Assembly: GCA_021734665.1 (NCBI GenBank)
Contig: JAIPIN010000006.1
Coordinates: forward strand, 1-32,962
Origin: Kiritimatiellales bacterium
GTDB lineage: Bacteria; Patescibacteriota; Gracilibacteria; Peribacterales; Peribacteraceae
Direction: 5' to 3'
Length of the DNA: 32,962 bases
Shown here piece by piece: positions 219 through 24,752 of the stretch. Positions within the stretch are counted from its first letter, which is position 1, and the number at the start of each line of letters is the position of its first letter. Position numbers and translations under genes: made by a program. Under the pieces are notes generated by a model. It did no database searches and was not told the DNA's origin. It saw nothing but the letters and a program-made list of their open reading frames with translations.

Positions 219-584
219 ATGCGTAAAAGACCTTATGAAAATATTATTGCTTGGCAGGAGGCATACAAGTTGTGTCTAACTGTTTATAAATTATCAAAAA
301 AACTTCCTATAGAAGAGCGATTTCCCTTGGCTAATCAGTTGAGAAGATCGGCTTATAGTGTTCCTACTAATATTGCAGAAGGGAATATGAAGAGGTCTAA
401 AAAGGAAAAGGCTCGTTTCTATGAAATTGCACAAGGATCATTAGAAGAGCTGCATTGTGAATGCAAATTATCATGTGATCTAAAGTATATTTCTATGAAT
501 GAATTTGAGAGTGTTGATGAACATCTTAATAGAGTTAGTTATCTTCTAGCCAGACTCAAGTCAGCAGTTCTAGTATCTCCTTAG
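219..584 (+). CDS. four helix bundle protein (S23/bVLRP-like family)
   Basis: ORF; IIAWQEAYKLCLTVYKLSKKLP...ANQLRRSAYSVPTNIAEG...FYEIAQGSLEEL is typical of the family. Confidence 0.9.
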   Translation: MRKRPYENIIAWQEAYKLCLTVYKLSKKLPIEERFPLANQLRRSAYSVPTNIAEGNMKRSKKEKARFYEIAQGSLEELHCECKLSCDLKYISMNEFESVDEHLNRVSYLLARLKSAVLVSP

Positions 585-607: not shown

Positions 608-1708
608 TTAGGATTCCTTATGCTCGTTTTCTATTAATTGCCGCAACTCCTGCATCGCTTTCAGCGTCACCCCTAGGTTTTGCATTTGTGCGTATGTCTC
701 GCCGAGCCTTTCGCCCGATCGTAATAAGTGACTTAAGTAGCTCTTATTAAGTTCGCGACTAAATTCACTTGGAGAGTCTGGATCAATAGGGGAGTGATCT
801 TTAAGAAATTCTGATTTAGAAATTCTAACTTGTGATCCGTCACTCATAATAATTGTTCCATGTCTTGCGATTCTCATTGGAAGTACACAATCGAACATGT
901 CTATTCCTGTGGCGACACACTTTTTCATCTGTTCGATTACGCCTACGCCCATTAGGTAGCGTGGTTTTTCTTCAGGCAGAAGAGGAGTGATTGCTTCTAC
1001 AACTCGTAGCATTTCTTCTTCCTCTTCTCCTACTGCAAGTCCTCCAAGTGCATAGCCATCAAAGTCCATTGCGATTAGTTCTTCGGCGCATTTCTTACGA
1101 AGATCGAGTTCGAGGCCACCTTGGATGATGCCAAACAATAACGGCCGTTGTAGGGTCACAGCGCGCTGTGACCCTACAACGCACAACTTCTCATGTATCT
1201 CCTTACACTCTTTCGCCCATCTGATCGTTCGATCCACAGCAGCCTCTATATCTTTTTTTGAGTCGGTGGAAGGTGGGCACTCATCAAAGCACATGATGAT
1301 GTCAGCACCTAAGTTGTGTTGAATTGTTATTGATTCTTCTGGTCCCATGAAAAGATTTTCTCCGTTTAAGTGAGAATTGAACTGAACACCTTTGTCAGTG
1401 ATTTTGTTATTGCGTCGCAGTGAATAAACTTGGAATCCTCCGGAGTCGGTAAGTATTGGTTTGTCCCAACTTATAAATTCATGTAATCCGCCTGCATCGC
1501 GAACAATCTCATCTCCGGGTTGGATATGTAAGTGATAGGTGTTACATAAGAGTATTTGTGCTCCTAGATCATTTAGATCTTTATGTGTTATTCCTTTCAT
1601 AGCACCTGCTGTTCCCACCGGCATAAAGAATGGTGTTTTTATAACACCATGTGCAGTGTGCAGTGATCCTTGTCGCCCCAATGATGTTGTTTTATGCAGA
1701 TCAAACAT
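608..1708 (-). CDS. tgt: queuine/archaeosine tRNA-ribosyltransferase family (Tgt-like), atypical zinc site and in-frame palindrome insertion
   Basis: ORF; TPFFMPVGTAGAMKGIT, LTDSGGFQVYSL, FGIIQGG, FDGYALGGLAVGE, GIDMFDCVLP motifs. Confidence 0.9.
   Translation of the reverse strand: MFDLHKTTSLGRQGSLHTAHGVIKTPFFMPVGTAGAMKGITHKDLNDLGAQILLCNTYHLHIQPGDEIVRDAGGLHEFISWDKPILTDSGGFQVYSLRRNNKITDKGVQFNSHLNGENLFMGPEESITIQHNLGADIIMCFDECPPSTDSKKDIEAAVDRTIRWAKECKEIHEKLCVVGSQRAVTLQRPLLFGIIQGGLELDLRKKCAEELIAMDFDGYALGGLAVGEEEEEMLRVVEAITPLLPEEKPRYLMGVGVIEQMKKCVATGIDMFDCVLPMRIARHGTIIMSDGSQVRISKSEFLKDHSPIDPDSPSEFSRELNKSYLSHLLRSGERLGETYAQMQNLGVTLKAMQELRQLIENEHKES
1146..1181. repeat. perfect 36-bp palindrome inside the tgt CDS
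   Basis: cgttgtagggtcacagcg|cgctgtgaccctacaacg; the two halves are exact reverse complements. Confidence 0.95.
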
Positions 1709-9706: not shown

Positions 9707-9812
9707 TGGATGAGTGGATAGTTGAATGGTTAAATGGTTGGATGGCTCTAAAGTGGCAACAAGCCTGATAATCGCCTGCGAACCATCCAACCATGTAGCC
9801 ATCCAGCCATCA
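9707..9812. repeat. octad-array hairpin element, copy A
   Basis: TGGATGAG TGGATAGT TGAATGGT TAAATGGT TGGATGGC / core / AACCATCC AACCATGT AGCCATCC AGCCATCA; second copy inverted at 13111. Confidence 0.85.
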
Positions 9813-13095: not shown

Positions 13096-13110
13096 CGAAG
13101 AGTTTTTTAT

Positions 13111-13203
13111 AGCTGAATGGCTATATGGTTGGATGGTTCGCAGGCGACTATCAGACCTGTTGCCACTTTAGTAGCCATCCAACCATCCAGCTATCCAACC
13201 ATT
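13111..13203. repeat. octad-array hairpin element, copy B (inverted relative to 9707-9812)
   Basis: Core CGCAGGCGAYTATCAGRCYTGTTGCCACTTTAG shared with copy A in opposite orientation. Confidence 0.85.
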
Positions 13204-15442: not shown

Positions 15443-16240
15443 ATGCTTCCTAATGCCTCACATTTTCGCTTACTGATGCGATTTTTTTCGATTGCTGTTT
15501 TGTGTGGTTTGTTTGTATTCTGTGCCGTATTGCTGCGAATTGTAACGCAATTTGATGGTACACACCCAGAGTATCCAGTGGAGTGCGGATTGGTGTTTGG
15601 AGCAGCTGTGGGGAAGGGGAGTACTCCAAGTAGAGCTCTTACACGTAGAGTAGAGAAAGCTGCAGAACTTTATAATGCAAAGTATATTAAAACACTAATA
15701 TTCTCGGGCGGAAAGGGGAGTGAGTGGCAGGAGAGTGAGGCTGCTGTAATGCGCAAAGTTGCAATGTTAAATGGGGTCGATCCCGATGATATTTATTTAG
15801 AAGAAGAATCAACATCAACTTGGGAAAATTTAGAATTTTCTAAATCAATAGCTGATGAACATTGTGGGGCTAGCTATGCGGAGTCCGAAATAGGAAGCGG
15901 GGCGTCTTATGTGGAGCTTGATGAGCGAAGTGAGGCCAGTCCCGCGGATTCTGATGGACGAAGTGGGGCGGGCCCCGCGAAGCTCCGCAGAGCGGAGCGA
16001 AGTGGGGTGGACGATCGCACAGCTGTAATAGCGATTTCTGATCGCTACCACTTAGCGCGAATTTTGCAGCTCGCAAACCAGCAAAATTGGGGGGACTTGG
16101 AATCCGCACCAGCCAGAAAGAGTGTGTCACCACTCAGTGAGACAAAAAGTGTGCTGCGTGAGGCCGTTGGAATCATCTTTTATGCTTTAAATGGCGATTC
16201 TCTTAGGAATTATTGGGAGAATCAAGAATTCGCGTTCTAA
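15443..16240 (+). CDS. YdcF/SanA/ElyC-like (DUF218) membrane protein with repeat insertion
   Basis: VFGAAVGKGSTPSRALTRRVEKAAELYN, FSGGKGSEWQESEA, EEESTSTWENLEFSK motifs. Confidence 0.85.
   Translation: MLPNASHFRLLMRFFSIAVLCGLFVFCAVLLRIVTQFDGTHPEYPVECGLVFGAAVGKGSTPSRALTRRVEKAAELYNAKYIKTLIFSGGKGSEWQESEAAVMRKVAMLNGVDPDDIYLEEESTSTWENLEFSKSIADEHCGASYAESEIGSGASYVELDERSEASPADSDGRSGAGPAKLRRAERSGVDDRTAVIAISDRYHLARILQLANQQNWGDLESAPARKSVSPLSETKSVLREAVGIIFYALNGDSLRNYWENQEFAF
15866..16003 (+). repeat. in-frame minisatellite: three 33-bp units plus one 39-bp unit
   Basis: 15866-15898, 15899-15931, 15932-15964, 15965-16003 encode GASYAESEIGS / GASYVELDERS / EASPADSDGRS / GAGPAKLRRAERS. Confidence 0.9.
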
Positions 16241-17882: not shown

Positions 17883-18320
17883 TCACCACCCATCAAATTC
17901 CGTCACATCCCATTTGCCACAAGCTGATGACCATTGATATTCGTTTGCTGCATCGCACAGTTCAGCTTTGACGGGATTGTTATGCACATACTGTATTGCG
18001 CCACCTATATCATCCACGATGCGATTGTGAAATCGCGGCTGCCATAATGGTGAAATGCCAATTTGGAAATTTAATCCCATTTTGTATGTTCTCATTATTT
18101 TAGAAATTGAACCAGATTCTGGAACACGTAAAACAAAATGGCAGTGATCGGGCATAATAACAAATCCATACAAGAAAAACGGCATACGTTGTTGTGTGCG
18201 GTAAATATGTTCCACGGCTTCATGGGCGTATGCATTTTTTGCAAAATATGGTTCTCCATTGAACGTGTTGGTTGTAACCAGCATTATGTCTTCGTTCTGG
18301 GTGGGGTGACGTTGTGTCAT
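17883..18320 (-). mobile_element. REP-associated tyrosine transposase (Y1/RAYT)
   Basis: VIMPDHCHFVLRVP (HUH motif), LWQPRFHNRIV, AIQYVHNNPVKAEL. Confidence 0.92.
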
Positions 18321-21992: not shown

Positions 21993-22084
21993 GTCATCCT
22001 GAGTGCGTCGCCGGTCGCACTTCGATACGCTCCGGCAAGCCGGAGCTACTCAGCATGACACGGCGGCGTGTATCGAAGGGTGAC
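21993..22084. repeat. interleaved-complementarity element, copy 2
   Basis: Same framework as 15288-15382; apical hairpin ctccggc-aa-gccggag. Confidence 0.9.
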
Positions 22085-24667: not shown

Positions 24668-24752
24668 GTGCCCCGCCGGTCGCGCTTCGATACGCCCTTC
24701 GCTTCACTCAGGGCTACTCAGCATGACACGGCGGGGTGTATCGAAGGGTGAC
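24658..24752. repeat. interleaved-complementarity element, copy 3
   Basis: gtcatcctgagtgccccgccg...acggcggggtgtatcgaagggtgac; overlaps the stop codon of the GIY-YIG gene. Confidence 0.9.

Follow-up and report, generated by a model that had tools for sequence, protein, structure and literature searches.

TnpAREP transposases of subclass 2.4 are known with double-foot REPs, in which a 5' GT[AG]G and a 3' C[TC]AC end one hairpin, and with REPs located in frame inside the transposase gene itself, between the HUH and Y motifs (Quentin et al. 2018, PMC6006769). In canonical GTAG REPs the tag at one end is unpaired, and copies are abundant in the host genome; GTAG REPs also occur inside genes, repair and tRNA-modification genes among them, where they are translated in frame, and in a single case, recB of two Xanthomonas, different REPs occupy roughly the same position (Di Nocera et al. 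2013, PMC3733652). Among the palindromic elements of Rickettsia (RPEs), RPE-4 and RPE-6 carry a CGTC tag at one end and have no known transposase, RPE-1 being longer (PMC3733652).

The DNA analysed here is a stretch of 32,962 nt (the window) from a Peribacteraceae (Patescibacteria) MAG that is ~83% complete. An inverted-repeat scan confirmed what an earlier note on this stretch had reported, a perfect 36-bp palindrome (CGTTGTAGGGTCACAGCGCGCTGTGACCCTACAACG) at 1146-1181 (no strand assigned) with 18-nt arms, 100% complementarity and no spacer. By simple arithmetic, the chance of a perfect palindrome with 18-bp arms is ~33,000 x 4^-18, or ~5e-7 per window. It lies in a 366-aa ORF (608-1708, minus strand) encoding Tgt, which matches TGT structures in the PDB at E ~1e-91 and whose frame is open across the palindrome. 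Twelve codons of tgt (1145-1180, minus strand) are made up by it, corresponding to residues V177-R188 (VVGSQRAVTLQR). The 28-bp core GTAGGGTCACAGCGCGCTGTGACCCTAC (1150-1177, no strand assigned) is perfectly paired, and its two ends are GTAG and CTAC.

The same note gave this interval as about ten residues longer than in E. coli Tgt, and a phmmer alignment with E. coli TGT (PDB 10fb) indeed places 10 extra residues exactly at the palindrome. The segment comprises 18 residues in the window Tgt vs 8 in the congener L007, whose loop is thus 10 residues shorter. Compared with these two proteins, both of which do not have the palindrome, the helix-to-strand loop is lengthened by ~10-12 residues, and the comparison supports the proposed in-frame insertion at the level of sequence. 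Relatives without the palindrome do not reach the same length where they are short-looped, while some others are long, many of them with other repeats. An exact empty site at the nucleotide level was not found in the congeners, their loops being too diverged.

The window holds further repeats. Several other inverted-repeat families are represented at 585-627, 2284-2353, 9717-9811, 13109-13203, 22014-22084 and 24679-24752, namely a GGAAACCAAAG type adjoining tgt, a ATGGTTGGATGG type and a TTCGATACGCTC type. Within an ORF at 15443-16240 (plus strand), the segment GASYAESEIGSGASYVELDERSEASPADSDGRSGAGPAKLRRAERSG appears repetitive and resembles a further repeat inserted in frame. A 121-aa ORF at 219-584 (plus strand) may encode a protein of the four-helix-bundle / 23S-intervening-sequence kind.

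With GTAG at the 5' end and the complementary CTAC at the 3' end of one hairpin, the core GTAGGGTCACAGCGCGCTGTGACCCTAC has the GT[AG]G/C[TC]AC hairpin ends of a double-foot REP (PMC6006769). Unlike such a REP, which is dispersed in several copies in its host, the exact tgt element is located in tgt and is single-copy in its genome (G000), both as the 36-mer and as its 28-bp core. The closest relative came from the full family search and is found in another genus (G058), where a RAYT/TnpAREP gene contains the same 28-mer in frame, 31 nt being shared in total. The search for the 36-mer elsewhere in its own genome, which the earlier note had proposed, returned the tgt copy only; besides it there is one sister palindrome, GTAGGGGCACGGCATGCCGTGCCCCTA with T in place of C as the next base, inside the own RAYT gene (G000:C4) and at the same internal place as in G058. 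The reading frame of this own RAYT is broken by a frameshift near the C-terminus, ahead of the tyrosine motif.

Beyond exact copies, GTAGGGNC..GNCCCTAC palindromes occur in 18/74 genomes of the family with up to 14 per genome, and a reversed control gave few matches. The 68 copies represent 29 distinct cores, and merely 10/948 pairs are mismatched although the inner positions vary; since the search pattern fixes the outer positions, only the inner ones are informative for this statistic. The tgt core fits the consensus of this GTAGGG palindrome family. Among 380 Patescibacteria genomes and viral contigs, GTAGGGTCAC palindromes were detected in no others than the own genome and one viral contig (L175), and a similarity search of plasmids gave no match. 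Sequence thus supports that the tgt palindrome belongs to a dispersed GTAGGG-type family, as suggested before; the dispersal holds across the genomes of the family and not within the own genome, with its one exact copy.

Two further identities were considered and rejected. As in the intragenic GTAG REPs (PMC3733652), a GTAG-tagged palindrome is translated in frame within a tRNA-modification gene; a canonical GTAG REP has an unpaired tag and is abundant in its genome, whereas GTAG of the tgt element is paired with CTAC, leaving both ends paired, and its exact copy number is one. The resemblance to Rickettsia RPEs drawn in the earlier note is an analogy only: a palindromic repeat is translated in frame inside a gene in both cases, but the element ends in GTAG/CTAC (core) or CGTT/AACG (36-mer) instead of carrying the CGTC tag of RPE-4 and RPE-6, and it is RAYT-linked. 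The tgt element works like an RPE and is not an RPE. It is REP-like with double-foot structure, and as such another case of an already known kind of element, and it does not constitute a multicopy REP family resident in its own genome. The assignment to subclass 2.4 is deduced from features, namely the matching structure and the in-frame palindromes inside RAYT genes.

Most RAYTs inspected in the lineage carry a palindrome at the same internal place. RAYTs L229-L232, L234, L236-L239, L241, L243, L244, L246 and L249 have it in frame between the HUH and SLGxIIxxFKS motifs, each lineage with its own sequence type. A RAYT-like ORF (PF01797) in the window (17883-18320, minus strand) belongs to a different subfamily and has no internal palindrome. 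A second RAYT of the own genome (L227, G000:C25, 1527-2158) is flanked on both sides by GCAGCGATT-type palindromes in a REPtron-like layout. Moreover, PF01797 matches lie in open frames of ~770-1070 aa in G009, G010, G029, G034, G035, G043, G048, G058 and G071, which suggests that Y1 transposase domains reside in large proteins in several genomes of the family. An ORF in L226 (687-1814, minus strand) combines a Y1 transposase domain with a Ham1-like domain and has a GTAGGGCC palindrome in frame in the transposase part.

The tgt gene is one of many hosts. Out of ~65 palindromes read in context, 33 lie in frame in ORFs whose identity was established by similarity to Pfam, PDB or RAYT sequences. 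Hosting genes encode DHPS, HMG-CoA reductase, mevalonate-diphosphate decarboxylase, DnaG, ComEC, AroA, AroB, endonuclease III-like proteins, P-type ATPases, glycosyltransferases and RAYTs, among others. Two reading frames are used by these palindromes, in 21 and 12 cases, and none is read in the remaining frame, which contains TAG. Alignments with PDB entries show extra residues at the palindrome in DHPS, HMG-CoA reductase and AroB.

Within Tgt, the insertion falls in a surface-loop segment between residues 177 and 196 (1121-1180, minus strand) that varies widely in length and is in relatives a recurrent site of unrelated repeats. In 62 proteins of the family it measures 8-45 residues (median 13, sd 9.7) vs 6-10 residues (median 7, sd 0.9) in 55 proteins of other phyla; other Tgt segments barely vary in the family, save single cases and truncated proteins. 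Inverted repeats (score 8 or more) amount to 3.17 per kb in the loop vs 0.18 per kb over the remainder of these genes; the 55 outgroup loops contain none with such a score. By eye, the inserts in loops of different species of the family fall into no fewer than eight palindromic or repeat types that are unrelated to one another: GTAGGGTC, CCCTCTCC/GGAGAGGG, GA-rich hairpins, GGTCCC, CACTTCGAC, CCGCACCCCTGCAGGGGTGCGG, GACGTGATGCCATCACGTC and GAGCGGAGACGAAGGATCGACACG. Several of them have more copies in the same or other genomes.

Four congeners have loops that all differ from the window tgt, and none contains its palindrome. Apart from the short-looped L007, L005 shows a short repetitive stretch, L006 CCCTCTCCCGAAGGGAGAGGG and L008 a long hairpin of the GAAGAAACAGAGGA type. 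The recurrence extends to family f10 of the same class: in three of its tgt genes this loop holds a GTAGAGAC...GTCTCTAC palindrome, and the three have the upstream QTF codons in common. This element is dispersed in the f10 genomes concerned, where copy numbers reach 27 (G503). On the tree, the starred branches require GTAG palindromes to have arisen in tgt at least twice.

The AlphaFold model of the window Tgt has an overall pLDDT of 90.9 and matches TGT structures (TM 0.92). In this model the palindrome residues lie where helix 151-182 ends and in the loop that leads to strand 190-195, with pLDDT falling to 69 at residues 181-190. In TIM-barrel enzymes the helix-to-strand loops lie on the face opposite the active site, which fits a tolerance of inserts. 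We infer that the loop recurs as a site because inserts are tolerated there, rather than as a preferred DNA target. As a separate observation on these proteins, the CxCxxC zinc-ligand motif is present in 0/62 Peribacteraceae Tgt vs 54/55 of other phyla and 36/40 elsewhere in the class.

At orthologous coding sites, the arms of the palindromes appear to change in pairs. The GT2 genes of G011 and G013 carry ATAGCGCGCTAT and ATTGCATGCAAT, respectively, in the same alignment column, and both are paired. Likewise, ComEC of G012 and G015 has differing yet paired palindromes that share one column of the alignment; an alignment of the endonuclease III-like proteins (G010 and G047) also brings their palindromes together. 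Sites at which the arms would change in step, with pairing kept almost perfect, are in a glycosyltransferase, ComEC, an endonuclease III-like gene and possibly tgt in f10. Arms extend past the core in 19/68 copies vs 4.25 expected (p 2e-8, with copies within a genome being non-independent). Paired arms could result from template switching at hairpins, copy conversion, repeated insertion or hairpin selection.

Taken together, the tgt palindrome is very probably a REP-like double-foot element, spread by RAYT/TnpAREP proteins, which inserted in the tolerant Tgt loop with the frame preserved. A RAYT/TnpAREP transposase of the HUH type would process the hairpin as single-stranded DNA and move the palindrome, a step that is proposed on the basis of TnpAREP/IS200 biochemistry in the literature. 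The palindrome would then have inserted into the loop that joins the long helix (151-182) to the following barrel strand (190-195). With the frame preserved, the DNA would be translated as a 12-residue linker and Tgt would still fold; the insertion is presumably neutral for the enzyme. A RAYT is the likely mover. As the own RAYT of this type is frameshifted before its tyrosine motif and there is a single exact copy, movement would have occurred earlier or by another RAYT. The loop would tolerate this palindrome as it does other repeats, and a transposase preference for tgt DNA is possible and not needed.

Such a preference, based on sequence, structure or replication-strand context and going beyond mere tolerance, might nevertheless be read from the many unrelated repeats that recur at one tgt loop, including GTAG palindromes in two families. 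We regard it as rather unlikely, given that the same elements are located at different positions in many other genes, that the inserts are unrelated in sequence and therefore probably have different movers, and that no common flanking motif is apparent by eye in the tgt loops viewed. Alternatively, the palindrome may never have been inserted and may instead stem from expansion or template switching within a loop that was variable beforehand. Tandem-type repeats in several loops (L005, L269, L276, L312) and the extension of arms past the core above chance would agree with this; the identity of the 28-bp core with a RAYT-internal palindrome of another genus and its fit to the family consensus make it very improbable.

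The tgt mRNA is predicted to form a strong RNA hairpin at the palindrome (z -3.97), and palindromes at orthologous coding sites of other genes stay paired, as would be seen if the hairpin had a function in tgt, e.g. an mRNA structure that tunes expression, and were kept for it. However, it is absent from 4/4 congeners, whose loops hold unrelated sequence or almost nothing, and a function of this kind seems most improbable. That the element is known from a single MAG and in a single copy, and that palindromes can be misassembled, would allow for an assembly artefact. The probability of this is close to negligible: the frame is kept, the identical core is found in G058 and the same element type lies in frame in many independent MAGs. 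We have rejected this reading on the last of these points.

Two parts of these results are worth pursuing: the recurrence of inserts at the tgt loop, and the arms that change in pairs. The literature consulted lists intragenic REPs one gene at a time, and PMC3733652 does not describe a single loop with many unrelated repeat types; here one loop of a conserved enzyme gathers many repeat families in parallel. A broader idea is that the Tgt loop serves as a class-wide landing pad for unrelated palindromes and that orthologous coding palindromes are actively maintained or repaired at the DNA level, the protein following. We put this forward tentatively and hold it somewhat more doubtful than probable. 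With the paired changes, it becomes testable whether correction at the DNA level can drive changes in protein sequence. The Tgt loop offers a natural assay for the palindromes that are mobile in Patescibacteria and for the places at which proteins tolerate them.
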